From contig NZ_LT607750.1 in NCBI RefSeq assembly GCF_900090235.1, forward strand, positions 5,199,001 through 5,263,000: a stretch of DNA of 64,000 nt. Reading direction: 5' to 3'. Both the position numbers and the translations under genes were made by a program. This DNA comes from Micromonospora echinaurantiaca. GTDB taxonomy: Bacteria > Actinomycetota > Actinomycetes > Mycobacteriales > Micromonosporaceae. Positions 22,073 through 53,729 of this stretch are shown here, in pieces (the stretch's first letter is position 1; every line of letters starts with the position of its first letter). Below the pieces are notes generated by a model. That model searched no databases. It was not told where the DNA came from and saw only the letters and a program-made list of their open reading frames with translations.

Positions 22073-22280
22073 GCTGGGACTGTAGTAGATCACGCGGTGA
22101 CGGCGACGTCGTGCGGGTGCGCTACGTGGGCTCCATCGCATGGACAGATGTCTGCCGACACTACGGCCCGGACCATGGTCGAAGCGTGGACGTCGACCGC
22201 AGCTGGCAGAGGATAGGCAGGGACCCCTCGCGAGCCCAACGCACACATGTGACTACACCCCAGTTCGAATGCGCTGTTGA

Positions 22281-23267: not shown

Positions 23268-23329
23268 CGATGGGCTCCTTCAAACTTGGTCGCCTGCTGG
23301 TGGAGACACCCTGCTGCCGGACCCAGCGT

Positions 23330-36548: not shown

Positions 36549-39439
36549 TTGCCACCTTCCGTGTCTGGCACGACCATCAGCAGCGGCCGTACGAGCTGCC
36601 GGTCGGGTGCCATCGCCTGCACCAGCGCCTTCTCCTGTTCCACACTCGTCCTGCGCTGCTTGAGGTCGCTGCGCTGGATGAGCACATCGGCGTCGGCGTC
36701 CCAGAGGTCCAGCCGCCGCGTCCAATCCTCGACCCGCTGCGCCGCGTCTCGCTCCGCCGCCTTGAAGATATTGAGCAGGTGGCTCTCCGCCTCGTGCACG
36801 GCAGGAGCCACCAGCTGGCTCAGGGCCTCCAGGTCGGCGACCGGCGTCGGGTTGTTTCGTGCGGCGTCCCAGCCGAGCGCGCGTAGCGCCGCCCGAGCCG
36901 ACTCGTGTGGGGAGATCAGCCTGAAGGACGGATTCTCGGGTGTCGGAAACTCCGCCGTCAGCCAGGCGGTGGAGACGACCTGGCCGCGCCGGTTGGTCAG
37001 CGTCCCCAGCAGCAGCACCGTCGGAGCGTCGACGGTGCCGCGTACGGCGAAGACCTCGTTGCGGCCCAGCGCCGCCAGTGCCCGGTCTGCCGCCCAATCC
37101 AGCACTGGGTGCAGCGGGCTGAGGTAGTGGGCGTCGGGCCAGGAGATCTTGTCTTCGCGCCGTGCGGCGGCCAGCCGTTCCTTGCCGCGTGCCTGGGTCG
37201 TGGCGAGCACCAGCCGCTCGGTGACCTTGCGCTCGGCGAGGTAGGTCTGCGGCAGCACCTCCAGCCGCTGCACCAGGTCCGGGGGCGGACTCAGCTCGAC
37301 CGTGCCGAATGCTTTATCTCGACGCCAGCCCACACCACCACGGCTCGGCGGCGCCGTTGGGTCGATGAACGCCTCCTGCAACGCGTCCTCGAGGTACGAG
37401 ACGTCGTCGTCGTAGAGGCCCGAGTCGAGGTCGAGCCCACCTTCCGGCTGATCGTCGGCCGGCTCGGCGGCGGGCTGCTCGCTCGGCGCGTCGAAGAGCT
37501 GGGCAAACATCGCCGCCACGTCGTTGCCTGCCGCTACCGCCGCGACTGGGCGTACCACGTCATCGAGTTGCTTCTTGCCGGCGAGGACGTCGCGGATCTC
37601 GTCCTCTTCGCCCTTGACGTCGTAGCGACCCATAAGCGAGGCGACGTCGCCGAGCGCGCTGTGCGCCTCGTCCTCCTTCTCCACCAGCTTCGCCAGGATC
37701 CGGACGTCCCCGGCGAAGCGCTGGCTCGTCGGGTCCAGCAGCAGCGCCGTCACCCGAGGCGGATGCTTCTGCCCGTACCGGTCGATGCGGCCGTTGCGTT
37801 GCTCGATGCGGATGAGGCTCCACGGGATGTCGTAATGGACCAGCTCGTGGCACTGCACGTGCAGGTTGACGCCCTCGGACGCCACGTCACCGGTGACGAG
37901 GACGCGTACGGTTGCCTGTTCCTGCTTGAAGGCCTCCACGATGCGCTGCTGCTCGTCGTCGGCCAGCCCGCCGTGCATGATCTGCACTGCCTCGGCGGGC
38001 AAGCCGAGGTCGTTCGGCAGGTTGCGGTGCAGCCAGCGCAGGGTCTCCAGGCGCTCGGCGAACACGACCACGCGGGCGGGAGAGCCGCGGCCGACGCCGC
38101 ACTGCTTCAGGTGCGCCACGAGCCGGGTGTACTTCGCCGAGGGCTGCTGCAGCGTCCTCTTGTTCAGCGCGGCGAGTCGTTCCAGCGCCTGGCGCTCGCG
38201 CGCCTGCCGCCCCGGATCTCCCTTTTCATCCTTGCCGAGCCGGCTCAGCCGTCCCTCGATCGTCTCCTTCAGCGCGGCGGGGGAGGAGAGGAACGCCTTC
38301 GCGAGGGTCCACGGGAAGAGGGAGGCGTTCTGGCCCGAGTAAGGGCTGCCGCCCTTGCCGGGCCAGAGCCACGTCTGCTCCAACTCCTGCGCGACGGCGT
38401 TCTCCGCCGCCGTCGCCGGCACGAGTACGTTGTGCGGCTCCTGCCGCTCCGCCCAGTCGGCGCCGACGACCTGCGCGACCTCCGGGCTGTGTCGATGCCG
38501 CCGCACCACGAGTCGCCGTACCTCGTCTGGGACGAGTTCGCCGTCCGGTTTGACGGCGGACGGGTCTAGCAGCCGGATCAACTCGGCGAAGGATTCCGCC
38601 CGGCCGTTGTGCGGGGTGGCCGAGGCAAGGATCAGCGCCTCGGTGTTGCGCGCCAGCAGCCGCGCGAGCCGGTTGTTCAGCGTCGTGGCGTTCGCCAGGT
38701 TGTGCGACTCGTCGATGACGACGGCGTCCCAGCGCTGCTTGCGAAGGCTCGCGACGTACCGGTCGGACTTGAGCGTGTCGATCGAGATGATCGCGCGCTT
38801 GTAGTAGGTGAACGGGTTGCGGGTGGCCGGCAGCTTCTGCCGCACCCGCTGGATGCCGGCCGAGTCGAGCCGAACGAACGGCAGCGCGAACCGCGTCCAG
38901 AGCTCGTGCTGCATCTGCTCCAGCACGTGCCGCGGCGTCACGATCAGGATCCGGTCGCCGCGGCCACGGCGGACCAGCTCCGCGAGGATCATGCCGATCT
39001 CGAGCGTCTTGCCGAGACCGACGGCGTCGGCGAGCAGGATCCGCGGCCGCAGGTTCTCGGGGTCGAGCGCCTTGCGTACCGCCGACTGCTGGTAGCTGAG
39101 GGCGTCAGCCAGGCCGCGGGCAGCAACGGAGAGTGAGCGTTCGCCAACGGGAACAGCGGTCTTGCGGATCGTCGATTCCAGCCACAGCCGTGCCGTGCGG
39201 TATCGCGGGCTGCTGTCGGCCACGACCTTGGCCTGCGCCGGGTCCAGCGGCTTCACCTCGTCGAGACGGGTGTAGAACGACGCGCTCGTGTCCCGGACCA
39301 GTTCGCCGAGGCCCTGGACGTGCACCACGGTGCCGTCGGCGGTCTCCTCGGTCGAAAGGACGAGCCACTCCTCGTCGCGGACCACGACGACCGACCCTGG
39401 CGCGAGCGCTTCACGGACGTCAGGCATGGTTGCCGTCAC
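36542..39439 (-). CDS. drmD: SNF2-family helicase of the DISARM type (DrmD-like)
   Basis: This 965-residue protein starts at GTG 39439 with GGAG 9 nt upstream; ATG 39427 is the alternative. Motifs are ILLADAVGLGKTLEIGMI (138-151), VVIDESHNL (241-249), LASATPHNGR (271-280), VLVTGDVASEGVNLHVQCHE and IEQRNGRIDRYGQ. An N-terminal small domain (SVVVVRDEEWLVLSTEE) and a long acidic insert (EQPAAEPADDQPEGGLDLD) flank the motor. DrmD is the class 1 DISARM translocase, and here it precedes the methyltransferase with overlap, the expected class 1 order. It is divergent from vsr. I separate it from the second SNF2 gene at 10133-13198 because only this one is beside drmMI/drmA/drmB. Confidence 0.9.
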   Translation of the reverse strand: MTATMPDVREALAPGSVVVVRDEEWLVLSTEETADGTVVHVQGLGELVRDTSASFYTRLDEVKPLDPAQAKVVADSSPRYRTARLWLESTIRKTAVPVGERSLSVAARGLADALSYQQSAVRKALDPENLRPRILLADAVGLGKTLEIGMILAELVRRGRGDRILIVTPRHVLEQMQHELWTRFALPFVRLDSAGIQRVRQKLPATRNPFTYYKRAIISIDTLKSDRYVASLRKQRWDAVVIDESHNLANATTLNNRLARLLARNTEALILASATPHNGRAESFAELIRLLDPSAVKPDGELVPDEVRRLVVRRHRHSPEVAQVVGADWAERQEPHNVLVPATAAENAVAQELEQTWLWPGKGGSPYSGQNASLFPWTLAKAFLSSPAALKETIEGRLSRLGKDEKGDPGRQARERQALERLAALNKRTLQQPSAKYTRLVAHLKQCGVGRGSPARVVVFAERLETLRWLHRNLPNDLGLPAEAVQIMHGGLADDEQQRIVEAFKQEQATVRVLVTGDVASEGVNLHVQCHELVHYDIPWSLIRIEQRNGRIDRYGQKHPPRVTALLLDPTSQRFAGDVRILAKLVEKEDEAHSALGDVASLMGRYDVKGEEDEIRDVLAGKKQLDDVVRPVAAVAAGNDVAAMFAQLFDAPSEQPAAEPADDQPEGGLDLDSGLYDDDVSYLEDALQEAFIDPTAPPSRGGVGWRRDKAFGTVELSPPPDLVQRLEVLPQTYLAERKVTERLVLATTQARGKERLAAARREDKISWPDAHYLSPLHPVLDWAADRALAALGRNEVFAVRGTVDAPTVLLLGTLTNRRGQVVSTAWLTAEFPTPENPSFRLISPHESARAALRALGWDAARNNPTPVADLEALSQLVAPAVHEAESHLLNIFKAAERDAAQRVEDWTRRLDLWDADADVLIQRSDLKQRRTSVEQEKALVQAMAPDRQLVRPLLMVVPDTEGGKW

Positions 39440-39543
39440 AGGTGCGTTCTCCGTCTTCGAGATGTCACTGCAAGTTAGTTGCGGCCGGGAAGATAGCCTA
39501 GCTGCGCGTATTCGCTCATACCGTCCCCGGATAGGTCGCAGAC
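39440..39543. promoter_or_regulatory. divergent promoter gap drmD / vsr
   Basis: This 104-bp non-coding gap separates the starts of drmD (minus) and vsr (plus). It is richer in A+T (for example agttagttgc, aagatagcctagc) than its surroundings. It is the only internal promoter position obvious in the minus-strand array, so drmD, drmMI and the genes after them may be transcribed separately from the sigma-fusion/drmA/drmB unit. Confidence 0.4.
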
Positions 39544-39978
39544 ATGGACCGAAAGTCCACCCCGCCACCGCCACTCGATGCTGCTACGTCGGCCCGGTTC
39601 CAGCGGATGCCACGATCCTCTACCAAGCCTGAGTTGGCACTGCGGCGTGAGCTGCACGGTCGAGGCCTACGGTTTCGGGTCAACCATCCAGGGCTGCCCG
39701 GTCGCCCTGACCTCGCGTTCACTCGGGCGAAACTCGCGATCTTCGTTGACGGCTGCTTCTGGCACCGCTGCCCCGAACACGGCACCCTGCCTCGCAACAA
39801 TCGGGACTGGTGGCAGCAGAAGCTCGACCGCAACGTGGCCCGCGACCGCGCCAAGGACACTGCCCTAACCGAGTTGGGCTGGATGGTGCTGCACGTCTGG
39901 GAGCACGAGGCCACCAACGCCGCCGCCGACCGAGTGGAGGCCGAATGGCGGCGCCGGGTGTCTCCTGCTACGCCCTGA
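39544..39978 (+). CDS. vsr: very short patch repair (Vsr) endonuclease
   Basis: This 144-residue protein has the Vsr core: FQRMPRSSTKPELALRREL, the catalytic Asp in GLPGRPDLAFTRAK, and FVDGCFWHRCPEH, which carries the zinc- and DNA-binding His/Cys set. NRDWWQQKLDRNVARD follows, as is usual. The length is normal. Vsr nicks 5' of T in T:G mismatches that arise from deaminated 5-methylcytosine, so it normally accompanies an m5C methyltransferase; one is present in this island at 20978-22072, though 17 kb away. The gene is reversed relative to all its neighbours. Its last 11 bases overlap the last bases of drmB tail-to-tail, and it starts divergently from drmD. Confidence 0.93.
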   Translation: MDRKSTPPPPLDAATSARFQRMPRSSTKPELALRRELHGRGLRFRVNHPGLPGRPDLAFTRAKLAIFVDGCFWHRCPEHGTLPRNNRDWWQQKLDRNVARDRAKDTALTELGWMVLHVWEHEATNAAADRVEAEWRRRVSPATP

Positions 39979-41710
39979 CCGACGTACGCAGGTATCCGTT
40001 GGTACCGAAGAGCACCTTCCGATCCAGGAAACGGTTGAAGAACCGGCACGACGGCTCCCCCAGATGGACGCAAGCGCTGCACGCGCCACTGCCGCGGTCA
40101 CATCCGGGATCTAGCGGGCAGCGGTGCTCTGCATCGACGAACGCGTCGAGCAACTCGTCGAGGTTCGACTCGAACACCGCCTGCATGCCGCCGAGGACGA
40201 AGTCACCGCGGGCGGCGGCGTAGACGAAGAAGCCGAGGTGACCGGGTACCAGGTACTCACTCAACGCGTCCCGCTCGATCCCCGAGAAGACGGCGGCCTG
40301 CCGAATGAACCTGTGGGCGTAGGTGTGCACCAGCTTGAGCAGGTCGGTGCCGGCGGACTCGACCGACGGATCGTCACGCTTGGACGGCACTTGCACCTCC
40401 TGCAGGATCACGACTCGCGCCGCGACCGCCCCGTCTCCGGAGGTCCATCCCTGCAGCCGGTGCCCTCTCCCGACCAGCCAGGTGGCGACCCGTACCGGGT
40501 CCAGGCGGACCAGGAAGGCCTCCGTCTCGGCGAGGTTGCCGTAGAGCCGATAGCCGCCCTTCTTCCGGCGGAAGGGCACCAGCCGACACTTCGACGGGTC
40601 GTCCTCGCCCCGCGTGTAGCCGTACATCGCGTTCAGCACCGGGAACCGGTCGACGAGGTCCAGGCCGTCGATCCCGGCCCGCTCGAGCGCCACCGGATAG
40701 CGGTTTTCGTAGCGCACGTCGAGGGCATCGCCCCGCGTGGCGCTGCGCAGTGCCGTCGTCGGCGTGCGGCTCTCCGCGAGCGCCATTGCGATGTCGACCG
40801 CTTCCCGCTCTGCTTCGTCGCGCCGTTCGCCCGACAGCCCGTCGATCGGGTGGTCACCGGCCTTCGCCAGTCCCCCCTGATCGGCGGCGCTCTTTGCGGC
40901 AACCTCAGCGATCTCCCGAGGAAGACCGGTGCGCATGAGCTGCTCGATCAGTTCTTCGAGGGTCGGCGGGGAGACCACGTCAGCGGGCCGCGGCACGGTC
41001 AGCCCATCGACCACCCAGACCAACGCCTTACGAGCACCACCGGCTAGCTTGAGCCCCTCCCTGTGCTCGGGCCGTGGCGGGTTGATCAGCACCATGCCGC
41101 GCGGGGTGTAGACCATGCGGGCCTTGTGCACGTTCCAACGGAAGGACCCCTGACCGCATGCGCAGGGCTTGTTGAAGCCAAGCCCCTGCATCAGTCGTGT
41201 GTCGCAGACGGGACAGACGAAGGAGATGTCCGCGGCCTTGGCGCTCTTGGGAATCACGACCTTGACGTCGTCGTGCGTCGGGCACCGCTTGATGTATGGC
41301 TCAGCGATGGCGCCGCATTCGTGGATGCCAACGAAGTGCAATTGGCCCCATTTGTTGCGCTGACCGCACTTGCACGGCCGATCCATCGACCTCCCAATAC
41401 GCTTGCACTTCGGGCAGAGCCATACCTGCGGATACCGTTCGACGGTCACGCCGCGCCGCTCGTCGAGCTCGACCACTTCCACAGGAGCCCTACGCATCAG
41501 GTCGTCGCCGACTCCACCGTCCTTACCGTGGAAGGCCCAGGCGCCCACCTCGCGAAGCAGGTGGCGTCGTACGAGGTCGGTGTCGACCTGGATGGGACTA
41601 GGCGCGGACCACTCTGCGACCCGGTAGATGTCGCCGCGGAGGTCGACCGTCTGATCGGGGAGGAAGGTACGAAGGATCTGGCTGCCGCTGCGGGATCCGA
41701 GGACTGTCAT
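39968..41710 (-). CDS. drmB: DrmB, DUF1998 protein of DISARM
   Basis: This 580-residue protein has zinc-site motifs in the N-terminal half (WLCPKCKRIG, CKCGQRNKWG, FVCPVCDTRL, CACGQGSF). The C-terminal DUF1998 region has LKLVHTYAHRFIRQAA, GHLGFFVYAAARGDFVLGGM and the Cys set HRCPLDPGC...CSACVHLGEPSCRFFN. It has no motor motifs; DrmB works as the partner of the helicase DrmA. The gap to drmA is 12 bp on the same strand, the conserved DISARM core pair. The 3' end overlaps vsr on the other strand by 11 bp. Confidence 0.87.
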   Translation of the reverse strand: MTVLGSRSGSQILRTFLPDQTVDLRGDIYRVAEWSAPSPIQVDTDLVRRHLLREVGAWAFHGKDGGVGDDLMRRAPVEVVELDERRGVTVERYPQVWLCPKCKRIGRSMDRPCKCGQRNKWGQLHFVGIHECGAIAEPYIKRCPTHDDVKVVIPKSAKAADISFVCPVCDTRLMQGLGFNKPCACGQGSFRWNVHKARMVYTPRGMVLINPPRPEHREGLKLAGGARKALVWVVDGLTVPRPADVVSPPTLEELIEQLMRTGLPREIAEVAAKSAADQGGLAKAGDHPIDGLSGERRDEAEREAVDIAMALAESRTPTTALRSATRGDALDVRYENRYPVALERAGIDGLDLVDRFPVLNAMYGYTRGEDDPSKCRLVPFRRKKGGYRLYGNLAETEAFLVRLDPVRVATWLVGRGHRLQGWTSGDGAVAARVVILQEVQVPSKRDDPSVESAGTDLLKLVHTYAHRFIRQAAVFSGIERDALSEYLVPGHLGFFVYAAARGDFVLGGMQAVFESNLDELLDAFVDAEHRCPLDPGCDRGSGACSACVHLGEPSCRFFNRFLDRKVLFGTNGYLRTSVRA

Positions 41711-41722
41711 GTCGTCCGCCTG

Positions 41723-44700
41723 TCAGTCGTGGATGGGAGCGCTGGCCTCGACGTCGCGGAGGCTCGTCATCGGTGATCGGGGGCCCAGTTCGCTGACGAA
41801 GGTGGCCTTGGTGGCAGGGTCTTCGAGATCGGCGAACCAAGCCTGCAGCCAATCGGCGATCTGTTCGCGATGCAGGGAGTCCTCCGTCCCGTCGAGGCCC
41901 AGGACCTTGGCCACTGCGGCTGCCTCGGCCGCGGGCGTCATCCCGGAGTCGCGCGCGTACTGACGCAGCTTCGCTGGCGTGCTGAGCCGCTGCTTGCTGG
42001 CCGGCTCACGGATCATCAACGTCCGCGCGCCCACGACGCCGGCCACGGTGAGGTCCAGGACCCGGCGACTGCGGCGTGTGATCGGGATGGCGTCGACGAA
42101 GCGGTCGCCCTGCCGCACGTACTGCGTGAACTGCCGGAACGTCTGCGCATCGCGTTCCCGGCCGATCTTGTGCAGAACGTAGACCAGGCCAGGGTGCCTA
42201 CGACCGACCCGCGCCGTGGTCTGGATGAACTCGGCAGTCGTCAGCGGCAGGCCCAGCATCACCATGGTGTTCAGCCGGTCTACGTCGACCCCGTGCGAGA
42301 GCATCGAACTGGCGGCCACGACGTGGATCCGCTCGGCGAAGTCCTCCTCCGGCTTCTCCAACCGGTCCAGGATGGCCCGGACGTCGTCGAACTCGGTCTG
42401 CCCGGTGAGCTGCTCGACGTTGATGCCCTCGACCGTGTTGTTGCTGCCAAGACTTCGCCCGGCGGCTTCCACGTCGTAGAGCGTCGACCCGTAGACGACG
42501 TCGGTGCCGTACAAGCTGACCAGCATGTCCACGTGCTTCCGGTCGATGCCGGCTTCGGCGCACACGGTCGCGGGGTCGTCCTTGAGCTGGCGGACGCAGC
42601 GCTGCAAGGCGTCTAGCGTCCGGTCACTGACGTGCTCCAGCGTGACGCCACGGGGCGCGACGGCCACGAACCGCCGCAACGGCTTCTCCGTCGGGCTCGT
42701 CCAGAACGATTCACCCGCTCGCGGGCCCGGCTGCGGAAAGACCCGTCCCTCCCGCTGGTAGAGGACCCTGGTCTGGTGTTCGTATCCGGTCAGCGTCGCG
42801 CTGCTCGCCACGATCTTCGCCCGAGTGCCACACAGCTCGATCTGGAGATGATCGAGCAGGCTCTCGTAGTGGGAGTCGACGGCGCCGAGGCTGTCCCGTA
42901 GGAGGTGCAGCTCGTCCTGCAGCCGCAGTGATGGGCCGAACCGCTTGGCGTCCATGGGCAGCGGCCTGAGGGCCTTGCCGCCCTGGCAGTCCGGCACCAG
43001 ACAGCCGTTGGGGTTCTTGGACCGCTCCGCGTACGTGAAGCCGTGCCATTCCACCGGGCATAGCTTCTGTGGCGGCCCTACCAGGCCGCGCATCGCCTGC
43101 TGCAGACCGATCGATGCGGCCTTGTCGAGGGTGCCGACCACCACCGTCGGTAGGAACCTGAACACTTCCTGGTCGACGACGTACATCGGCAGGGCCTGCC
43201 CCTTCCAGGGGCATGCCCGGTTCGTGCAGCGATGGTCGAGCTTCCACCGCTGGCGGTCGAAGCGCATCTGGAGGTTCTCGTCCCGACAGAAGGGGCAGTG
43301 CAATAGGACTCGGTACTTGTCCGGCATGCCCGGGCTGTCCGGGGTGATCTCGTCGGTCTCGGTCTTCGGCACGATCTTGTTGGGTGTGCCTGCCCGCCCG
43401 ACGAGGAAGCCGAGACTGAATGGTGCACCCTTGACGCCCTCTTCCTGGCGCACCATCTCCGCGCCGGCGAGAGCATCGGCGAATCGCTGGGTCTGCTGGA
43501 GGCTCAGTAGCCGCAGCGGGAAACGCGACCAGGCCGTCACTCCCAGGGCTTTGCCGGTGAGGCGGTCGAAGAACGCCGCCGTCAGGAGCAGCCCCAAATA
43601 GGTCTCCGTCTTGCCGCCACCGGTCGCGAACCAGACCGTGTCGACGTACCTAGCCTCGTCCTCCGGCTCGGCGAGGAAGCGAATGGTTGAGAGCAGGAAG
43701 CCGACCTGGAAGGGCCGCCAGGAGGCGTACCCGCGCCCCTTGGCGCTACGGGCGATGGCCTTGTTCATGAGTTGGAAGGCACGGAGGATCTCGGGACGGT
43801 CCTGTAGCAGCGCCAGACCGGACCGGAGCCTCCTCAGTTCCTCGAACACCTGCTCGGCAGACCCGTCGGCCTTGGCTCGCATGGTCGGCGTCCAACCTTC
43901 GGCGGCCTGCCGAGCGTCGAGAGCTGTCGAAGACCAGTGGGCGTGGTCGTACGCGTCGAGCGCATCGACCAGGACTTGGAGCTGAGGGAGCGGGTCGGAT
44001 GCGAGCCTCATGAACGACAGGTCCGGCTGCGGAGCTGCGCCACTCCAGTAGTCGGGACGGTAGGTCTGCACGCTCACGGTGTCCGACGTGCGGAACACGC
44101 CCGGCGCCAGGACCTCGACGCCGACGTTCACACCGTAGGCCGGCACCTTCCGGTCGTACCGGAAGCTGTCCGGTAGCGCCTCCAACTCGAACGGCACGGT
44201 CGGAAGGCCAGAGACTTCGAGCTGCGTCTCGTACAGGTGGGAGTCGGTCAGGCCGGGTGCCTTCTCCGGGCTCGTGTTGACCAGCTGCACCACGACTTCG
44301 GTCTGCCGATGCCAGTCCTCCACGTCCACCCGCACCTCGGCGGAGAGACCTGGGGCACCCACCGCGGCGAATGCATCCCGGAGCTGCTTGCCACCGAACG
44401 TTCCGCCCTCGCCGTAGGCGAGGACCGACACGACCTCCTCGACGAGGTCCGTCCGCCACCAGCGCCGGTCCGGGTCCGGCCCGTCCTTCGGGTCCTTCAC
44501 CCACGCCCGTGCCCGGACGGTCACCGTCATCGACCACGGTGGCGCCGTCGCGGGACGGAGCCGGATGGCGATCGCACAGGGGTCCAGACGTTCCGACCGA
44601 TCGTCGGAGGCATCTTTGCGCACCTCGTCCTCGCAGGCGAGACGGCCCAACCAGAACGTGCCGGAGGGTGCCACCTCGAGACGGCTCAAGCCGTCGCCGC

Positions 44701-44785
44701 GGCCCGCCGCTACCACCCGTCGGTCGAGCCAGTCGACGAACGCCTCGCAGGCCTGCTCCAGAGACTGGTCCCCCACGCCGCTCAT
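41723..44785 (-). CDS. drmA: DrmA, DISARM helicase
   Basis: This 1020-residue protein has a long N-terminal beta-rich part (1-330), then Walker A WFATGGGKTETYLGLLL (about 383-399), zinc-like motifs (HCPFCRDEN, CTNRACPWKG), a helicase box LRLQDELHLLRD (about 617-628), KIVASSATLTGYEHQ, and motif VI IQTTARVGRRHPG. The TGGGKTE P-loop and the DExH written as DELH are characteristic of DrmA and related proteins. Its start (ATGA) overlaps the stop of the helicase-nuclease-sigma gene, and drmB follows 12 bp later. DrmA with DrmB forms the DISARM core that senses and occludes unmodified invading DNA; the present variant carries the core intact. Confidence 0.9.
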   Translation of the reverse strand: MSGVGDQSLEQACEAFVDWLDRRVVAAGRGDGLSRLEVAPSGTFWLGRLACEDEVRKDASDDRSERLDPCAIAIRLRPATAPPWSMTVTVRARAWVKDPKDGPDPDRRWWRTDLVEEVVSVLAYGEGGTFGGKQLRDAFAAVGAPGLSAEVRVDVEDWHRQTEVVVQLVNTSPEKAPGLTDSHLYETQLEVSGLPTVPFELEALPDSFRYDRKVPAYGVNVGVEVLAPGVFRTSDTVSVQTYRPDYWSGAAPQPDLSFMRLASDPLPQLQVLVDALDAYDHAHWSSTALDARQAAEGWTPTMRAKADGSAEQVFEELRRLRSGLALLQDRPEILRAFQLMNKAIARSAKGRGYASWRPFQVGFLLSTIRFLAEPEDEARYVDTVWFATGGGKTETYLGLLLTAAFFDRLTGKALGVTAWSRFPLRLLSLQQTQRFADALAGAEMVRQEEGVKGAPFSLGFLVGRAGTPNKIVPKTETDEITPDSPGMPDKYRVLLHCPFCRDENLQMRFDRQRWKLDHRCTNRACPWKGQALPMYVVDQEVFRFLPTVVVGTLDKAASIGLQQAMRGLVGPPQKLCPVEWHGFTYAERSKNPNGCLVPDCQGGKALRPLPMDAKRFGPSLRLQDELHLLRDSLGAVDSHYESLLDHLQIELCGTRAKIVASSATLTGYEHQTRVLYQREGRVFPQPGPRAGESFWTSPTEKPLRRFVAVAPRGVTLEHVSDRTLDALQRCVRQLKDDPATVCAEAGIDRKHVDMLVSLYGTDVVYGSTLYDVEAAGRSLGSNNTVEGINVEQLTGQTEFDDVRAILDRLEKPEEDFAERIHVVAASSMLSHGVDVDRLNTMVMLGLPLTTAEFIQTTARVGRRHPGLVYVLHKIGRERDAQTFRQFTQYVRQGDRFVDAIPITRRSRRVLDLTVAGVVGARTLMIREPASKQRLSTPAKLRQYARDSGMTPAAEAAAVAKVLGLDGTEDSLHREQIADWLQAWFADLEDPATKATFVSELGPRSPMTSLRDVEASAPIHD

Positions 44786-47700
44786 GACGCCTTCCTCCTC
44801 ACGGGAACGCCGAACTCGCCGGCCTTCGAATCGTCGACCAGGTAGGAACGCAACGCAACGACCTCCTCGCTCTCCCGCAACGTCGCCAACGTCTTGACCT
44901 GGATCTGTCGGATGCGTTCACGCGTGACCCCGAAGTCGGCTCCGATGACGTCCAGCGTCTCCTCGTCCCCTGTTCCGAGACCGAACCTGCGTTCGATGAT
45001 CTGGACCGCCCGCTCCGACAGGAGCGCGGTCAAGGTGCGGGCGACGTCCGTACGGAACATCGCGTGGATGACGATCTCGGCGGGATCCGTGCGCCCGTCG
45101 CGGTTCTCGTCGTCGAGCAGCACGTCCGACAGGTGGAGGTCGCCCTCCTCCCCGAGAAGCATGTCGATGCTGACGAAAGGACGTCCGAGATCTAGGACTG
45201 CCTGCACCGATCCCAGCTCCACGCCGGTCTCTTCGGATATCTCGGCCAACGTGGGCTCCCGATCGAGTCTCGACGTCAGCCTCGAGACCGCTCTTCGTAC
45301 CTTCTGCACCTTCTCGTGCATGTGCACCGGGATCCGGATCGTCCTACCTCGGTCTCCGATACCGCGCTCGATGGCCTGTCTGATCCACCATGTGGCATAG
45401 GTCGAGAACTTGAACCCCTTCGAGCCATCGAACTTCTCTGCCGCCCGCATCAGACCGATGTTTCCGTCCTGGATGCGGTCGGCGAACTCCACGCCGCTGG
45501 AGTCGTAGTGCCGGCTCCTGGCGATCGAGACCACCAACCGTAGGTTCGAACACACCAATTCGGCATGCGCGCGTCTTCCATCCGCTACACGGCTTTCGAG
45601 GCTCGATCGGACGCTCGGCGGAAGCCCCTCTTCACCTACTGCTGCGAGTTGTTCCTGGGCAGCAAGCCCCTGCGAGATCAACGACCAGAGCTCGACCTCA
45701 CGTGACGCGCCGATCAACGGATAGCGGGCGATCGCCTGGAGATACTGGCCAACGGAGTCACCCTGGATTTCGTAGCCCTTGGGCGCGGCCTGCTTCGGCC
45801 GCACGTCCGCTGACCGTGGAAGGTCGACGCCCGCGTCCTCCAGCAGGCTCAGCAACTCGCCGTGCTGCGCCGAGGACAAGTTCCGCTTCGTGGCCAGCAG
45901 TGCGACGTCGGCGCGGCTCAGCTGCCCGCTACGCGCCCAGTCTCCTAGGAGATCGTCGAGTGCTCGTCCCACGACGTCGTCGGCGGCTGTCGACGACGGT
46001 GTCTGCGGATCCTCCCCGAACATCCATGCAAGGTCGTCGTCCGGTGTCTCGTTCTCGGCCTCGACGGCCTCGGCATCCAAGCCGCTCTGACCGGCGTCGG
46101 ACGGTTCCGCTGGAACGGAGGTGCCGGTGGGAGCCACGTCCATCATCGATCCAGCGACGGTCAGGTCGGTCGCGCCCAATGCGGCGTTGGGAGTCGTAGT
46201 TGAGGAGGCCCGAGTCAGAGCGACCACCAGCGCATCGACCTGATGGTTGGTCAGACGATGCCTGGAGACGAAATCGGCTACGACCGACTGCGCCGACCGG
46301 GAACCGCGGCGATCGAGGATCGTGCGCAGCTCGTCCACCAGCGCATCCGCAAGGGGTGCGGAGACCTTCGAGGTGGTGGTCCGTGAGGACAGCGGCACGA
46401 CGACCGAAGCCTTCACGACGGGCGCAGGATCTGCGACCGAGTCGTCGGCGACGGTAACCGAAGTAGCGACACAGGGCGACGGTGACACGGCAACCGACGC
46501 CCCGATGGGGGCCGGTTCGGCAGCCGAAAGTCGCTCCCGATCGGGCGCCGGCCGGCCGAGCACGACGTCAGGAGTCTGCGGAGCGAGTTCCTCGACCGCA
46601 CCGGCCGACGCGACTTCCATGGCTGACGGTGCATCGAACAGCGCGGCGGGCGGCGGAGGGGTAGACGGCTCGACGGTCGCCTCGACTGGCGACACGTGAG
46701 GTTCGTCGACCACCGCTGTGAGGGGTTCGACGACCGGCACCGACAAGTCCGGACTCACTACAGCGACACGCTCGACGGGCTCGGCCGACGGCATGGGAGG
46801 TGCCGACGCCCGCGCAGAAGGCGGTGCAGGAACAACCGCAACGAAACGAGCCGCGGGCGTGTCAGACCTCGCTGCGACGACCGTGCCGCCGTTTGGAGCA
46901 GATGGAACCGGAGGGACTGGCGGAACCGGCGGAGTCGGTGGGGCCGGCGGATCTGGCGGGACGGTAACGCCCAGCTCCTCGATGCGCTGCCACAGCGGCT
47001 CCAGTGCCGCCTCCGGATCGCGGCTGAACACACTCCCCCGGATGCGGACGAAGACGCAGTTGCCGACCCGCTCCAGCACGGCCTGCCGGCGCATGTCGCT
47101 CTCCCACTGGTCCGGCCCGTGGTAGGCGTCGCCGTCGCACTCGATGGCGAGCCGCCGCCCGTCCGGCGCCGGCAGCACGAAGTCGATCCGGTACCCGCCG
47201 ATGCGGAACTGCGGCAGCGGCCGGTAGCCCCGGCGCAGGATCCGCCGCAGCACCGCGCGTTCGAAGTCGCTGTCGCAGCGCTTCTCCAGGTCGTCGTACT
47301 CCTCGTCGGCGGCGGCGACGTTCTGGCAGTAGGTGAGCAGCAGCCCTCGGGCATCGTCCTCGCGCAGGTCGGCAGGCTGCACGGAGTGGAAGACCCAGAG
47401 CTGGTCGCGGGCCCGAGAGGCAGCGACGTTGACCCGTCGGTGGTGGTCGCGCTTGGTGAAGGCGGAGACGACGCCGTTGTGCGGTGAAACGACCATCGAC
47501 ACGAGGACGATGTCGCGCTCGTCGCCCTGGAAGGTGTACGAGTCACCGACGCGCAGCCGGCGCCGTTCCATCTCCTCCTCGCCCACCATTTCGCGCAGGC
47601 GGGTGAGCAGATAGAGGGCCTGCCCGCTGGTGCTGAGCAGGCTCACCACCCCGATCGTGCGTCCGGAGTACGCGGGGTCGGCGACGATCGCGGCCACCCG

Positions 47701-50700
47701 CTCGACGAGCGCCTCGGCCTCGGCGACGTTGACGTTGCCGTACGTGGGGAGGTCCTGGCGAATGCCCTCCGGCACGTGCACGGCGATGACGGGGTCGCCG
47801 ATGCCGGCGGGCCGGTCGGTCCGCAGGGGCTCGATCTCCCCGCCGTAGTACGTCTGGCTGGAGAAGCCGATGATCGCCGGTACGGACCGGAAATGCTCGG
47901 TCAGCAGGATGCGCTCGGGTGAGCGGCGTACTGCGTGGTCGTAGAGGCTGCTCTCCGGGTCGAAGTGCTCGGCGGAGGGCACGTCGAACAGGTGGGAATT
48001 GATCAGGCCGGTGACCGTGCCGACGAACGAGAGCTGCGGGCCGATCTGCTGGTCGTCGCCCACGACGACGGCCCGTTCGGCGAGGCTGAGGATCGGCAGG
48101 GAGAACATGTCCGCCTGGGACGCCTCGTCGACGATGACGACGTCGAAGTGGGCGCCGCCGGCGAACTGTTCGATGGCGCGGTCGACGGACATGACCCAGA
48201 CGGGCACGGCGTCGACCGCGGCGTTCATCGCCCGCTGGGCGTGGGCCTGCCACTGGGCAGCGTTCTTGCCCGTACCCTTGCCAATCTTGCGCAGGGCGGT
48301 GGTCCAGTCGGCGAGCGCGGCCCGGCGTCGATCGTCGAGCGCCTTGGAGACCTCCAGCCAGGAGGAGGCGACGACGAGTTCTTGGGTGAGTCGTCGGATC
48401 CGTTCCCGCGTCTGTTCGATCCGGCGGCCGAGAGCGACGGGGTCGACGCTGCCAACGACAGCGTCGAACCAGGTCTGCGCCCGGCGCCACTGCCAGCGGT
48501 GCAGGCAGTCTGCCCCGGTGCCGCCGAGCGCGGTCGCCGTGGCGTCCTCGATCTGGGCGGTCCAGCCCGGCGCGGCCGAGCGCAGCCGTTCCGCGAGCTG
48601 GGTGAAGCGTTGTGCGTCGGGACGCAGCGCGGCGAGCCGGCGTACCTCGGCGACGATGCCGTCCCAGCCGGCGAGGTCGGCCCGCTGGCGGGCCTGGTCG
48701 AGCAGCCGCCACAGCTCACTGGCGTCGGTGGCCGACATGCCCTCCTGGAGGGCCGCGCCGAGGGTCCGCTCGTCGGCGACCAGCCGGTCGTACTCGAACA
48801 CCGTCGCGCACCGGGCGACCAGGTCGGTGAGGGCGGTGAGCCGTCGGGCGTCGACCGCCTGCTCGGCCCGGGGGACCAGCCGGCGGACGGCGGCATGCAG
48901 GGTGGGCCAGCGGCGATGGTCCCAGTCCAGCGCCGTCGCCGCGTCGGTGAGCAGCCGGCCCACCCACAGGTCCGGCTGGTCGGCGAGGTCGGTGGGCAGG
49001 TTGAGTAGCTGCCGCCAGTCGGTCCACCGGGTGTTCAGCTCCTGGCGCAGCCGCAGCCGGGCGACGTACGCGACGACGATGTCGACGTCCTCGGTAGTGC
49101 GCAGGGCCTCGCCGTCGATGTGGCACTCGGCGGCGAGCCGGGCGAGGGTGGCCTGGAAGAGCCGGTTGACGCCCTTGCCGGTCGCGAACCGCTGCCTCAG
49201 CTCGGCGAGCTGAGCTAGGAGGCGACGCGGCTCGGCGAGCTGCGTCTCGGGGACGTTCACCTGGTGGCCGGCCAGGATCCGGGCCGCCGCGGTCAGGTCG
49301 GTGAGCGCCCGCTGGCAGGCCGTCACGTGGTCCTGCCACATCGTCTGCCAGTTCGGGTCGGCCTGGAGCAGGGTGGCCAGCCGGTCGGTCCACGCGCCCT
49401 CGCGCCCGGCGAGCAGCGTCAGCGCCTGACGCAGCTCCCCGACGAGGTCGTCGAGGGCCGGCCGGCCGATCGCCCGTACCTCCGGCAGGACCACCCCGGC
49501 GGCGGCGAGCCGGTCGAGCTCCTCGCGGGCGGCGGCTAGTTTGCGCCGCGCGGCGAGGACGGTCGCCTCGGCGGGCAACTCGGCCGCCGTTGGCAGGTAC
49601 CGGAGCGCCTGCGCGCGGTCCTGTGCGATCGTACGGCGGGCGATCTCGAGCAGTTCGGTGAACTCCTCGACGCTCAGCGGCGCGTCCGCGTCGAGCGGTA
49701 GGGCGTCGGGGATGTCGCCGTAGCGGTCGGCCCGCTCCCGCAACCAGTTCCCGACGTCGCTCGGTGACAGCCGGATGCCGTCGATCTCGTAGTGCGCGGA
49801 CTCGTTCTCAGCCATCGCCCGCAGGCCGCCGAGCGCCTGGCCGAGGTCCCGCTCGGCTTCCTCCAGTTGCCGCCGCAGCCGGTCGACCCGCTGCTGTTCG
49901 GCCCTCTTGTCGAGGGTCGCCCCACGGTCGGAGAGCTCACGGGCGGCGAGTTGAAGCTGCACGAGCTGGTCGGTGGAGCGGCCGAGCACGGCCAGGCACA
50001 GGGACTGGATCTCCTGCGGTAGGCCGTCGCGCAGGACGCGGAGCGGGTCCTCCTTCTGCGCCACCACGAGCACCCGCTTGCCGTGCGCCATGAGGTGGCA
50101 GATGAGGTTGCGGATGGTGTGGGTCTTGCCGGTGCCGGGCGGTCCCTGCACGGCGACGTTGCGGTGCTGCGCCAGCCGGCGCGCGATGGACTCCTGGGCC
50201 TCGTTGGTCGGCAGCGGCATGAGCAGCCGCTCCCCCAGCGGCGCCCACCGCGCCGGCTGGTCGTGCGGCATCTCCAGCCGGCTCGGCTCGTGGGCCAGGA
50301 TGGCGGCCAGCGAGCCGATGGTCGCGGTGTCTCCGGCGAGCAGTCGGGCACGCAGCTCCTCCAGGAAGCGGCGCAGCATCCGCTGGCGGGGACGCAGGAA
50401 GAGCACACCCGTGTCGTGGACGTGCGGGCCGGCCGATGCCGCCGCGCCGGCGTCCGGGACGACGGGGTCGTGGCCCAGCCGGCGCAGGGCTCGCTCGAAG
50501 AACTCGACCCGGTCGAGGTCGTGCCAGACGTCGAGGTCGAGCTGGCCGCCGGAACCGGCAAGCGCGAGCAGTTGACCGAGGTAGCGCTCGTCGAGGCCGG
50601 TCAGCGGGTCGGTCTGCAACCGGGCGGCACCCTGTGGCACCACCGTGACCACGGAACGGTCGGCGTCGAACTCGATGGCGACCGGCGTCACCACCAGCGG

Positions 50701-51234
50701 GTACTGCACCCGGTGCCCGCCGACGTCGGTGCGGAGGACGCCGTGTCCCCACACCAGCTCGTGCGTGGCCGCGTTCATGTCGACGCGGTGCTTCAGGTCG
50801 AACAGGCTCCGGTGCAGCTGCCGTGCCGCCTCCGTACGCCTGGCCTGGTCGGCCCACGGACGCCACTCTCGCTCCCGCCACTGTGCGAACCGTTCCTGGA
50901 GCCGCTCGGTCGTCTCCTCGTCGGCGGCGAGCCGGGGTTCGGCGGCGTACGACGGCGTGCCGGCCACGTACGGCGCGAACTCGCTCGGCGTCCTGATCGG
51001 CTTCGCCGGAGCCGGCAGGCCGACCCGCAACCAACTGGCGCCGTCGGAGGAGACACCCACCTCGCAGGAGGCGTGGTCCGGGAAGTCGTGCTGCCAGAAG
51101 GCGTCGACCGCGGGCACCGTCCGGGCCGGCTTCTCCATCTGGGCCCGCACGGCCATCAGGTACTCGACCAGGGAGGTGGCCCGGTCGAGGATCAGCCGGG
51201 GCGATTCCGTCGAGGATGTGGAGGGGGAGAGCAT
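44782..51234 (-). CDS. SF1 helicase - Vsr/DUF559-like nuclease - sigma70 fusion protein
   Basis: This 2150-residue single frame starts at ATG 51234, chosen for AAAGGTG upstream; longer starts exist up to 51447. Residues about 361-1290 are an SF1B helicase: VQGPPGTGKTHTIRNL, VVIVDEASQADMF (about 1035), VVVGDDQQIGP, LLTEHFRS, DSYTFQGDERDIVLVSMV and NVAASRARDQLWVF. About 1320-1400 is a Vsr/DUF559-like nuclease (FERAVLRRILRRGY, GYRIDFVLPAPDGRRLAIE, CDGDAYHG). A proline-rich stretch (about 1420-1445) and a low-complexity linker follow. About 1753-1805 resembles sigma region 1.1 (SRADVALLATKRNLSSAQHG). The rest (1825-2135) is a complete sigma70: region 2 (NLRLVVSIARSRHYDSSG, KGFKFSTYATWWIRQAIERG, RTIRIPVHMHEKV), region 3 (REPTLAEISEETGVELGSVQ), region 4 (RAVQIIERRFGLGTGDEETL, FGVTRERIRQIQVKTLATLR). 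ATGA overlap with drmA places it first in the array. Its role is unknown; RNA-polymerase recruitment by a defence helicase is inferred. Confidence 0.92.
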   Translation of the reverse strand: MLSPSTSSTESPRLILDRATSLVEYLMAVRAQMEKPARTVPAVDAFWQHDFPDHASCEVGVSSDGASWLRVGLPAPAKPIRTPSEFAPYVAGTPSYAAEPRLAADEETTERLQERFAQWREREWRPWADQARRTEAARQLHRSLFDLKHRVDMNAATHELVWGHGVLRTDVGGHRVQYPLVVTPVAIEFDADRSVVTVVPQGAARLQTDPLTGLDERYLGQLLALAGSGGQLDLDVWHDLDRVEFFERALRRLGHDPVVPDAGAAASAGPHVHDTGVLFLRPRQRMLRRFLEELRARLLAGDTATIGSLAAILAHEPSRLEMPHDQPARWAPLGERLLMPLPTNEAQESIARRLAQHRNVAVQGPPGTGKTHTIRNLICHLMAHGKRVLVVAQKEDPLRVLRDGLPQEIQSLCLAVLGRSTDQLVQLQLAARELSDRGATLDKRAEQQRVDRLRRQLEEAERDLGQALGGLRAMAENESAHYEIDGIRLSPSDVGNWLRERADRYGDIPDALPLDADAPLSVEEFTELLEIARRTIAQDRAQALRYLPTAAELPAEATVLAARRKLAAAREELDRLAAAGVVLPEVRAIGRPALDDLVGELRQALTLLAGREGAWTDRLATLLQADPNWQTMWQDHVTACQRALTDLTAAARILAGHQVNVPETQLAEPRRLLAQLAELRQRFATGKGVNRLFQATLARLAAECHIDGEALRTTEDVDIVVAYVARLRLRQELNTRWTDWRQLLNLPTDLADQPDLWVGRLLTDAATALDWDHRRWPTLHAAVRRLVPRAEQAVDARRLTALTDLVARCATVFEYDRLVADERTLGAALQEGMSATDASELWRLLDQARQRADLAGWDGIVAEVRRLAALRPDAQRFTQLAERLRSAAPGWTAQIEDATATALGGTGADCLHRWQWRRAQTWFDAVVGSVDPVALGRRIEQTRERIRRLTQELVVASSWLEVSKALDDRRRAALADWTTALRKIGKGTGKNAAQWQAHAQRAMNAAVDAVPVWVMSVDRAIEQFAGGAHFDVVIVDEASQADMFSLPILSLAERAVVVGDDQQIGPQLSFVGTVTGLINSHLFDVPSAEHFDPESSLYDHAVRRSPERILLTEHFRSVPAIIGFSSQTYYGGEIEPLRTDRPAGIGDPVIAVHVPEGIRQDLPTYGNVNVAEAEALVERVAAIVADPAYSGRTIGVVSLLSTSGQALYLLTRLREMVGEEEMERRRLRVGDSYTFQGDERDIVLVSMVVSPHNGVVSAFTKRDHHRRVNVAASRARDQLWVFHSVQPADLREDDARGLLLTYCQNVAAADEEYDDLEKRCDSDFERAVLRRILRRGYRPLPQFRIGGYRIDFVLPAPDGRRLAIECDGDAYHGPDQWESDMRRQAVLERVGNCVFVRIRGSVFSRDPEAALEPLWQRIEELGVTVPPDPPAPPTPPVPPVPPVPSAPNGGTVVAARSDTPAARFVAVVPAPPSARASAPPMPSAEPVERVAVVSPDLSVPVVEPLTAVVDEPHVSPVEATVEPSTPPPPAALFDAPSAMEVASAGAVEELAPQTPDVVLGRPAPDRERLSAAEPAPIGASVAVSPSPCVATSVTVADDSVADPAPVVKASVVVPLSSRTTTSKVSAPLADALVDELRTILDRRGSRSAQSVVADFVSRHRLTNHQVDALVVALTRASSTTTPNAALGATDLTVAGSMMDVAPTGTSVPAEPSDAGQSGLDAEAVEAENETPDDDLAWMFGEDPQTPSSTAADDVVGRALDDLLGDWARSGQLSRADVALLATKRNLSSAQHGELLSLLEDAGVDLPRSADVRPKQAAPKGYEIQGDSVGQYLQAIARYPLIGASREVELWSLISQGLAAQEQLAAVGEEGLPPSVRSSLESRVADGRRAHAELVCSNLRLVVSIARSRHYDSSGVEFADRIQDGNIGLMRAAEKFDGSKGFKFSTYATWWIRQAIERGIGDRGRTIRIPVHMHEKVQKVRRAVSRLTSRLDREPTLAEISEETGVELGSVQAVLDLGRPFVSIDMLLGEEGDLHLSDVLLDDENRDGRTDPAEIVIHAMFRTDVARTLTALLSERAVQIIERRFGLGTGDEETLDVIGADFGVTRERIRQIQVKTLATLRESEEVVALRSYLVDDSKAGEFGVPVRRKAS

Positions 51235-51781
51235 GCGGCACCTTTGGTTCTGGGATGGATCTGCCATCGTGAGGTCGGCTCGACCCGTCGTCAGGAAGGC
51301 CGGCCGACCCTGCCTGATCGGAAAGCGCCCCGATGGCGTGAATCGGGCATGGCAGCGCGGGCAACCCACAGGAGCCCGTGACATGGACTCCGTCGCATGA
51401 CCCCACGGCCGGCCCGCCGTCGCACTAGCTGAACACACCCTTCGCACAGGCGCACAGCTCCCACCTCACCACTGGCGGTCCCCGGACCATACCCGGACGA
51501 GTCCTGCCCGCGGGACCCCCTGGCGCTCCGCCGATCGGCCGGCCTCGGGTAACCTCTTCCCGCCGTCAATTGCCTTCAGGGTCAATATTGCCCCGAGGCA
51601 ACTACTTGCCGACGATCTTCTCCTCTCCTGCTCAGCGGGGCCAGCCCTTCGAACCTGGCGTCGCGACGCTTTATCGCAGGGTCGCTTCTCTCGAGGTCCT
51701 ACGCACACCGACGGGGCGCCGCTGTCGGAGATGCGACAGCAGGCGGGGCCACGGCTTTTACGGGACCTGTCCGGAACGCGA
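51235..51781. other. upstream region of the sigma-fusion gene
   Basis: This 547-bp region has no supported gene. The minus frame of the fusion stays open to 51447 and includes a possible CPRCHARF zinc knuckle, so a longer start cannot be fully excluded. Two GTCAAT(AT)TGCC elements lie at 51565-51592. The promoter of the island probably lies in this region. The right part (51600-51780) separates it from the 3' end of the APH-like gene. Confidence 0.45.
51565..51593. promoter_or_regulatory. repeated GTCAAT(AT)TGCC element, partly palindromic
   Basis: GTCAATTGCC (51565-51574) and GTCAATATTGCC (51581-51592) repeat with a 16-bp step. The second has the perfect 8-bp palindrome CAATATTG inside GG.CAATATTG.CC. 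On the minus strand both read as ATTGAC, a -35-like word. They lie about 330-360 bp upstream of the chosen fusion start and 120-150 bp upstream of the longest one. An operator or promoter function is inferred. Confidence 0.35.
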
Positions 51782-52963: not shown

Positions 52964-53108
52964 GCCGGGACGCTACCGCCGGGCCACAGCGGGCAGCGAG
53001 CGCTTAATCGCGGCCAGCCCGCCAGCGTGTCCCCGCCGCCCGCCACCACCGGCCCGCGCTCGCGGCCGGCCGCTTGCGCGGCCGGTCCACGTGATGAAGG
53101 TTGGCCCC

Positions 53109-53603
53109 ATGTCCTGGTTGCGCCGCCTTCGCTACTCCGTGCCAGGTGTCTCGCCGAGCAGTTCGTACCAGGGCTGGGACGAGTACGACGGCCCCTTGCT
53201 GTCTGGCCGTCCCACGGTCGCGGCGGCGCTTGCCCGGGCACCTCGGCGGTTCGTCGACCTCGTCGTCCAGCCGGGCGACCCGGAGCTGGCGCTCAGCCGC
53301 GCCGATCTCCTGGCGGCCATCACGGTCGGCACCGGGGACGGACGGTCGTGGACCATCAGCCTCGCCGAGGAGATGAAGCCCGTGGTCGACACCGGGCCGG
53401 ACGTGACCGACGACGATATCCTCCTGGCCGCGTTCGCCGCGCACCCCGAGGTGACGCTGGCGCAACACCCGGACCGGGAGTGTTTCGAGCTCGCCCTTGC
53501 CAGACTGCTGCGGGTCGACGAACTGCTCGCCCTGACCGTGGACGCCCTCTCGGCCGCGCACCGGGAGCTCGCCCGTCGTCTGCGCATCGAGCTACCCGAC
53601 TGA
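53109..53603 (+). CDS. hypothetical protein
   Basis: This 164-residue protein starts at ATG 53109 with AAGG 8 nt upstream; an ATG 15 bases earlier (53094) is the other choice. The composition is normal for a soluble protein: an N-terminal basic stretch (MSWLRRLRYSVPG), a strand LVVQPGDPELALSRADLLAA, and a C-terminal helix rich in Leu and Arg. There is no signal peptide and no catalytic motif, and the family is not recognised. It lies between the APH-like gene and the SARP gene, on the same strand as the latter. Confidence 0.68.
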   Translation: MSWLRRLRYSVPGVSPSSSYQGWDEYDGPLLSGRPTVAAALARAPRRFVDLVVQPGDPELALSRADLLAAITVGTGDGRSWTISLAEEMKPVVDTGPDVTDDDILLAAFAAHPEVTLAQHPDRECFELALARLLRVDELLALTVDALSAAHRELARRLRIELPD

Positions 53604-53729
53604 CCGCCGGCCCCACGCCGATTTCCGGTCAGCCTGACCGGCATCCGGGACACCCGTCGCGGGTTCACGCATCGTCACCCGGCGTGCCACTACGGTGGTC
53701 GATACGCCACAAGGGAGGGTGGGTCCTGG

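Follow-up and report, generated by a model that had tools for sequence, protein, structure and literature searches.

What a complete sigma-70 factor might do at the end of a defence helicase-nuclease is the question raised by one gene in a 64,000-nucleotide stretch of the Micromonospora echinaurantiaca genome (RefSeq assembly GCF_900090235.1, contig NZ_LT607750.1, positions 5,199,001 to 5,263,000; hereafter the window). A sequence-only reading of the window had proposed that a superfamily 1 (SF1) helicase, a Vsr-like nuclease, a proline-rich linker and sigma regions are encoded there in a single frame. That reading missed that in other loci the sigma gene stands at the head of the drmA-drmB unit of the defence island system associated with restriction-modification (DISARM), and that sigma genes recur beside drmA in other actinobacteria. 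Because the residues that we take to contact polymerase, melt the promoter and read the -35 element are mostly kept, because the sigma is linked to a helicase and because it appears to have diversified together with DrmA, it is most simply regarded as a targeting subunit. Even without a mechanism, the observations suggest that a sizeable set of actinobacterial DISARM loci includes sigma as a component that has gone unrecognised and that co-diversifies with the system.

The fused gene was correctly placed at 44782..51234 by the sequence-only reading, which left its minus strand unstated; read on the plus strand, the same interval contains many stops. The claim of an uninterrupted frame holds, since the open frame running from a GTG at 51447 to 44782 encodes 2221 amino acids with zero internal stops (residue numbers below follow this frame). 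We take the ATG at 51234, which is preceded by AAAGGTGCCGC, has AAAGGTG upstream and gives 2150 amino acids, as the start, because this AAAGGTG..ATG context is common to the relatives and one fused homologue (P0003) begins at the equivalent ATG. The database copy of the window protein (P0002) is annotated from a later start and has 1874 amino acids.

Pfam matches to the 2221-residue frame bear out the domain order (family cut-offs in parentheses), with AAA_11 at 62 bits (27) and AAA_12 at 60.9 bits (27) in the helicase, MTES_1575 at 91.1 bits (38.2) in the nuclease, and Sigma70_r2 at 60.9 bits (24), r3 at 53.4 (25.3) and r4 at 38.5 (24.1), all three in one chain. Sigma region 1.2 scores 21.8 bits, just under its cut-off of 22, and rises over it, to 24.5, when the sigma part is scanned alone. 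Among the sequences of solved structures, the helicase core is nearest to Nam7/Upf1, Sen1 and Dna2, and the sigma half matches SigA/HrdB with an E-value of 3.8e-69; in Foldseek it matches actinobacterial SigA/HrdB chains of solved holoenzymes at about 44% identity. The earlier statement that regions 2 and 4 are as good as those of a primary sigma factor is nearly right, region 2 ranking 12th of 75 matches in the genome. The label 'region 1.1-like' fares less evenly. There are two N-terminal three-helix segments, of which one aligns weakly to HrdB region 1.1 (HHalign probability 72, E 3.3e-5), and region 1.1 gives no Pfam match in either the whole frame or the sigma part scanned alone. As HHalign aligns the second module only, the idea of a tandem region 1.1 is weakened.

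The fusion, sought in homologous loci, is present in six Micromonospora alleles. A search of 5.8 billion proteins yielded 349 large ones that contain a sigma domain (E<=1e-20), and among the 120 of these that are listed, helicase, nuclease and sigma occur together in the window protein and in P0003 to P0006, whose hosts are M. echinofusca, M. tulbaghiae, Micromonospora sp. CA-244673 and M. aurantiaca. The gene of M. lupini is likewise one continuous frame, of 2180 codons. At least six different in-frame fused alleles (P0002 to P0006 and that of M. lupini) rule out an assembly or frameshift artefact and, together with a ratio of nonsynonymous to synonymous substitution rates (dN/dS) of 0.134 in sigma regions 1.2 to 4, argue that the fusion is not chance sequence. 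The corresponding ratios, also for the window against M. lupini, are 0.205 in the helicase, 0.076 in the nuclease and 0.446 in the linker, and part of this divergence may predate the fusion or stem from recombination. P0004 and P0006 are 99.5% identical in helicase-nuclease and 83% in sigma, and M. lupini and P0005 are 97% identical in sigma and 91% in helicase. The window helicase shares 94% identity with the solo helicase of another genome (G071), and that of M. lupini 97% with one in G152; the two fused helicases are 86% identical to each other. Since the identities of helicase and sigma differ in this way between pairs of alleles, the comparisons indicate that the two halves have recombined, with the frame kept in all six.

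Both halves also exist as separate genes, which answers whether they are ever split. At E<=1e-74 this sigma type was found in 9 of 160 genomes of the genus, fused in two (G000, G095) and in frames of 515-627 amino acids in seven, and in three of 394 genomes of the class (G000, G012 and G344, the last from another family). The stand-alone sigma lies directly upstream of drmA-drmB in seven Micromonospora genomes, in G344 and in Amycolatopsis, and sigma is directly upstream of drmA in all of the 11 window-type loci, which were found through sigma. Of 300 genomes in the family, 124 have the helicase-nuclease at E<=1e-60. Thirty of its loci were taken and the tails read in 27 (L059, L063 and L064 gave another frame and were left unread): two carry sigma at their end (those of the window and M. 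lupini), 15 carry a different tail and 10 little or nothing. The 15 solo helicase-nucleases with another tail (L038-L041, L043-L050, L058, L060, L061) carry after the linker a C-terminal module resembling 'W.RP.EA...GLVQYF', followed in 14 of them by an 'FTALWER'-type module, tails that are interchangeable with sigma. In G012 the two halves are encoded by distinct genes, with some 136 kb between helicase-nuclease and sigma. The divergent neighbour of the fused gene in the window (51731-53800) also has relatives beside the solo helicases of G071, G012 and G008, which suggests that the operon came to be attached to the resident helicase gene. Of the fusion and its sigma half, the latter seems to be the older.

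How widely sigma accompanies drmA was read from a census that started from DrmA, which was found at E<=1e-40 in 64 of 394 class genomes. The stretches examined span 6.7 to 20 kb, and 20 of the 29 classical DrmA loci were examined at 8 kb. L146 and L156 were dropped as duplicates of L176 and L175; L011, which is not from the census, and G394:C9 (a two-part locus, L115, with 1.5-kb flanks) are outside the 44 loci counted, and L174, a 6.7-kb contig ending just past drmA, was scored as having no sigma. Sigma lies near drmA in 17 of the 44 loci with a short DrmA (14 of 41, plus G000, G012 and G344) versus 0 of 20 classical loci, the loci being related and the counts not independent. The last three named, which are the census loci with a close window-type DrmA, all have sigma; a locus whose DrmA is 50% identical (G293, L117) is without it. 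Restriction of sigma to the present genome is ruled out by the census and by the genus and class searches. Named records are labelled, for example, 'sigma-70 family RNA polymerase sigma factor', so that the theme is easy to overlook.

The sigma gene stands upstream of drmA on the same strand, divergent from it, behind drmB, or joined to other parts, the last in 7 of the 14 further loci. A GHKL-type ATPase is found behind sigma in L141 and L142 (by motif; PADLOC PDC-M33A), and in L145 and L147 an unassigned N-terminal part and an MzaB-like C-terminal part are joined to sigma (tested), with L148, L167 and L176 of the same type by sequence likeness. For P0155 (Frankia-type; mean predicted local distance difference test score, pLDDT, 52.4), the matches given by Foldseek were all sigma chains among the 50 listed. 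The N-terminal part of P0155 matched UvrD_C with an E-value of 0.17, no PDB sequence, and PADLOC GajB with an E-value of 0.0022 in L147; that it may be a helicase is only our reading of its motifs.

A tree of DrmA places the sigma-bearing members in two clades, with three label changes against 21 in shuffles; it was made by a quick method, with long-branch warnings for L117, L118, L119 and others, and some of its rows (L009, L010, L011 and the stand-alone loci of Micromonospora) had been picked up by way of sigma. Over 25 pairs, the distances among sigmas correlate with those among DrmAs (r 0.93; 0.89 and 0.88 within the clades; p 0.0001 in a Mantel test, L139 left out). One branch (97/88, in 96% of bootstrap trees) of a tree of 39 sigmas parts 26 DISARM sigmas from 13 housekeeping sigmas, the references being from this order only. 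P0134 was left out of alignment A1. Judged from these comparisons, sigma and DrmA seem to co-diversify, as expected of long-linked partners.

Fifteen window-type DISARM sigmas (six fused, nine stand-alone) and 15 other DISARM sigmas were compared with HrdB at positions numbered after what we take to be the Escherichia coli sigma70 scheme, together with the core, melting, -12 and -35 roles presumed for them. All 15 window-type sigmas have the HrdB letter at D403, Q406, N409, F427, T429, Y430, W433, W434, Q437, R451 and H455, and again at R554, R584, E585, R588 and Q589. We presume that Q406 and N409 contact the core, that F427, T429, Y430, W433 and W434 act in melting and that R584, E585, R588 and Q589 read the -35 element. 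The melting and -35 residues are mostly kept in the other 15 sigmas as well.

The fusion of sigma to large enzymes is found beyond the six alleles. P0091, a metagenomic protein of 2021 amino acids, has AAA_11, AAA_12, MTES_1575 and sigma regions 1.1 to 4, its sigma being only 38% identical, and in P0094 and P0099 a DpdF-like superfamily 2 (SF2) helicase is joined to a full sigma. Further sigma fusions are seen in very large proteins, P0034, P0041, P0071 and P0084 (three of them named as cyanobacterial) and, from Ktedonobacteria, P0024, P0028 and P0031, of about 2400 amino acids with an AAA_22 domain and of about 1340-1380 amino acids. P0017, P0022 and P0023 show DnaG-type domains and RpoD in one protein and are probably neighbouring genes read as one, and P0067 and P0102 have RNA polymerase beta domains together with sigma.

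Upstream of all seven stand-alone Micromonospora sigma genes lies GAAC-N4-GTTC, and in six of the seven TTGTC[AG]-N11-TANNNT follows 24 or 25 nt downstream of its start. On the evidence of their letters these elements fit, with varying outer bases, the LexA motif tCGAAC-N4-GNNCGa as one passage of PMC9380542 gives it and the RecA-NDp motif tTGTCRgtg-8nt-TannnT as excerpted from PMC5656591, the latter described in part of PMC8223512 as closely resembling the PafBC motif. The background is 28 exact LexA boxes per 1.26 Mb. Because of the LexA box and the RecA-NDp-type promoter, the stand-alone unit in these seven loci is predicted to be DNA-damage inducible, with sigma probably made on demand, and the unit probably does not need its own sigma for transcription. 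G344 and Amycolatopsis have neither a LexA nor a RecA-NDp match by sigma. RecA-NDp has no match in 15 other sigma-bearing loci. Exact LexA boxes there come near sigma in two loci, L011 (371 bases ahead of the sigma frame) and L150 (within the opening part of that frame), and otherwise lie kilobases away.

The account to which we incline, with a confidence that stays somewhat below even, is that the sigma part docks RNA polymerase and would thereby deliver the helicase-nuclease to melted promoters on invading DNA. The sigma half would bind core polymerase, the holoenzyme would open promoters on phage DNA, and the promoter bubble would offer single strand both for loading of the Sen1/Upf1-like helicase and for DrmAB; methylation by DrmMII would spare host DNA, and the Vsr-like domain would cut. 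At stand-alone loci the sigma would serve DrmAB likewise, in trans. Of the four roles put forward by the sequence-only reading, recruitment of polymerase is thus the one favoured here, and those of decoy and of island regulator are kept as rivals. ATPases of SF1 type (HelD, Sen1) or SF2 type (RapA, Mfd) work on RNA polymerase; to our knowledge these bind polymerase without carrying a sigma, and none is a defence nuclease. DrmAB itself is autoinhibited and requires DNA that is unmethylated and carries a 5' single-stranded overhang of roughly 7 nt, according to a portion of PMC9142583. More broadly, and more tentatively, one may speak of transcription-coupled restriction, in which some DISARM lineages would own a sigma as targeting subunit and RNA polymerase would be part of the immune machine, and in which defence helicases would have been fused to sigma more than once, as helicase-nuclease-sigma in Micromonospora and P0091 and as DpdF-like helicase-sigma in P0094 and P0099.

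Several observations weigh against sigma as a targeting subunit. T440, which we take to contact the -12 position, is D or E in all 15 window-type sigmas and T, G or S in four housekeeping sigmas, and towards the end of region 4 the 15 have another residue at R603 in 13 cases and at K597 in 8; with these changes promoter choice may differ, which favours a regulator. E407, presumably core-contacting, stays E in two of the 15 and gives way to D in 12 and to F in one, and both E407 and N409 are replaced throughout the other 15 sigmas. The correlation of distances can come from linkage alone, a locus near the second sigma-bearing clade (L149) has no sigma within its 16 kb, and the open frame of the L139 sigma (6183-7514, beside drmA) ends before region 4. 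Neither fused locus has a damage-type promoter, the LexA and RecA-NDp motifs both being missing upstream; for the window this covers the whole region 51235..51730, which contains no exact LexA box and no RecA-NDp promoter. The structure model of the sigma part is moderate (pLDDT 69.5, predicted template modelling score 0.34), and a separate sigma could perhaps be made from an internal GTG (residue 1704).

Among the rival explanations, we give an appreciable minority chance to a dedicated regulator, an alternative sigma transcribing island genes such as the drmD-methyltransferase-DruE-UvrD unit, with the fusion incidental or coupling the levels of the two activities. The sigma is first in its unit or divergent from drmA (L137, L138, L140-L142, L150), the classic place of a regulator, the fixed change of T440 to D/E could mean a -10 element of its own, and a TAGGCT-like -10 precedes the downstream unit in 5 of 7 regions aligned. 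No common private -35 motif was seen, however, and the -35 readers match HrdB in 15 of 15, so that nothing points plainly to a private promoter; LexA and RecA-NDp-type elements precede the stand-alone sigma-drmA unit, and repeated fusion of sigma to ATPases is unexpected for a plain regulator. The repeated attachment to several different enzyme parts, distant sigmas included, and the nearly complete, primary-like sigma would rather suit an integrated decoy, in which the sigma half baits phage anti-sigma or polymerase-hijacking proteins and their binding turns on the helicase-nuclease or DrmAB. We regard this as improbable, since the DNA-contacting residues, needless in a protein bait, are as conserved as the rest, and no described case was found in the literature by title and abstract start.

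A still smaller chance is given to a chance fusion, the operon having been inserted behind a helicase gene so that the halves work separately or the sigma is made from the internal start. Helicase and sigma do also exist apart, the helicase retains its own upstream region, and the sigma of M. lupini is annotated from an internal GTG, with 518 amino acids. The frame has nevertheless been kept in six alleles despite recombination between the halves, P0091 combines all three parts although its sigma is a distant one, and the internal GTG is without a clear ribosome-binding site. Least probable of all, in our estimate, is that the fused sigma locks core polymerase into an unproductive holoenzyme, so that transcription of phage and host alike would cease as abortive defence; the window type keeps several core-contacting positions and a region-1.1-like module is present, as such a shut-off would allow, but the melting and -35 residues are conserved as in an active sigma.

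Known systems resemble parts of this arrangement. As in DISARM, drmA and drmB homologues are adjacent and the C5 methyltransferase DrmMII lies in the locus, whereas here DrmA is of the divergent short type, the unit has no drmC and a sigma, stand-alone or fused, heads it. The main text of the DISARM structure paper (PMC9142583) names no sigma factor ('sigma' appears once, in Sigma-Aldrich), and no paper on a DISARM sigma was found in the literature searched, by title and abstract start. The genes downstream follow the order published for ARMADA Type II in the part of PMC12458937 that describes it, but are here combined with sigma-drmA-drmB; the main text of that paper on ARMADA and the YprA family has 'sigma' only as Sigma-Aldrich. 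The Mza defence operon likewise includes a sigma factor, mzaA being called one in a section of PMC9523054, whereas no mzaBCDE follow the sigma here and the neighbours are drmA, drmB and the rest. Identity as MzaA was rejected, because the PADLOC match of 152 bits is non-specific, two housekeeping sigmas of the same genome scoring 206 and 224 bits. The helicase with its MTES_1575 half resembles PADLOC PDC-S37 (171 bits) and Hhe (110 bits), but a sigma tail is found in only the two fused ones of the 27 relatives with tails read. Damage-responsive regulators of immune operons, DISARM among them, are known (CapW/BrxR, CapH/CapP; PMC13373217, in excerpt), whereas the stand-alone unit described here starts with a sigma gene and is preceded by a LexA box and a RecA-NDp-type promoter. 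BrxL has a sigma-like helix-turn-helix domain, as mentioned in a passage of PMC12839542. The sequence-only reading knew of no defence protein with the present architecture, and literature searches, covering titles and abstract starts, show no helicase-nuclease-sigma fusion.

MzaA is the known defence sigma, DISARM with sigma is a variant of DISARM, and the mechanism, if shown, would be of a new kind. RNA polymerase would then be a recruited surveillance platform, which would explain where systems that need unmethylated single strands obtain them when the incoming phage genome is intact, and sigma-guided nucleases would be a general, undescribed kind of immunity. The natural sigma-nuclease fusion makes the function directly testable.

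The defence context of the fused gene is borne out by PADLOC and Pfam matches of its neighbours (Table 1). DrmMII is divergent from sigma in G012, G082, G159 and G344 and lies downstream of the operon in both fused loci. The nearest PLD frame that could stand for drmC (56861-58396; DrmC 51 bits) is set apart by two other genes and also has a relative near a solo helicase gene (L081). Since the genes at 20978-39574 stand in the ARMADA Type II order (BrxHII-like, PglX-like, YprA/DruE-like, GajB-like), the island resembles a sigma-DISARM unit combined with ARMADA Type II; in G084, G074, G179 and G015 sigma-drmA-drmB is found without ARMADA genes in the stretches read.

Table 1. Features of the fused gene and of its island in the window (residue numbers as in the 2221-residue frame)
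Feature	Position	Strand	Evidence
Whole fused gene, 2150 amino acids from ATG 51234	44782..51234	-	Open reading frame; start shared with P0003 and context of relatives
Upstream region of fused gene, resembling that of the G071 solo helicase gene	51235..51730	-	Sequence comparison
SF1B helicase core, Upf1/Sen1/Dna2 type, residues 414-1353, Walker A QGPPGTGKT	47389..50208	-	Pfam AAA_11, AAA_12; PDB sequence matches
Vsr-like PD-(D/E)XK nuclease MTES_1575, residues 1395-1489, IECDG motif	46981..47265	-	Pfam
Proline-rich, fast-evolving linker, residues 1490-1690	46378..46980	-	41% identical to M. lupini
Region-1.1-like three-helix module, residues 1815-1880	45808..46005	-	HHalign to HrdB region 1.1; predicted helices
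Sigma-70 regions 1.2 to 4, residues 1891-2221	44785..45777	-	Pfam; PDB matches; Foldseek
Sigma region 2	45343-45555	-	Pfam
Sigma region 3	45100-45315	-	Pfam
Sigma region 4	44872-45021	-	Pfam
drmA-type helicase, overlapping the stop of the fused gene	41723..44785	-	PADLOC DrmA 340 bits; 97% identical in M. lupini
drmB	39968..41710	-	PADLOC DrmB 105.5 bits; synteny
vsr endonuclease gene, between drmB and the next unit	39544..39978	+	Pfam Vsr 70.2 bits; gap sequences of relatives
SNF2/BrxHII-like helicase (DrmD / ARMADA ArmA type)	36542..39574	-	PADLOC DrmD 312.6, BrxHII 177.8 bits; Pfam
PglX/type IIG-like methyltransferase frame (DrmMI / ArmB type)	31812..37097	-	PADLOC type IIG 1497.7, DrmMI 182 bits
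Second SF2 helicase, DruE-like (ArmC type)	25465..31815	-	PADLOC DruE3 273 bits; DEAD, Helicase_C, MZB
UvrD / GajB-like helicase (ArmD type)	23330..25468	-	PADLOC, Pfam
C5 cytosine methyltransferase DrmMII	20978..22246	-	PADLOC DrmMII 320 bits; synteny

The true start of the PglX-like methyltransferase is probably later than that of its frame. Residues before about 248 of the GajB-like helicase, where a RelE-like domain was sought, match no Pfam family at E 0.001, and the window contains no tRNA. The vsr-type gap sequence is alike in six loci (the window, L009, L025, L067, L070, L078) and missing in Amycolatopsis (L010). A second, shorter SF1 helicase (AAA_11/AAA_12, 450 amino acids) lies in the island at 17660-19012 on the minus strand, and an SNF2-type helicase beside a sacsin-like GHKL ATPase gene (10133-13198 and 7021-10140, both on the minus strand) is a possible further defence pair.

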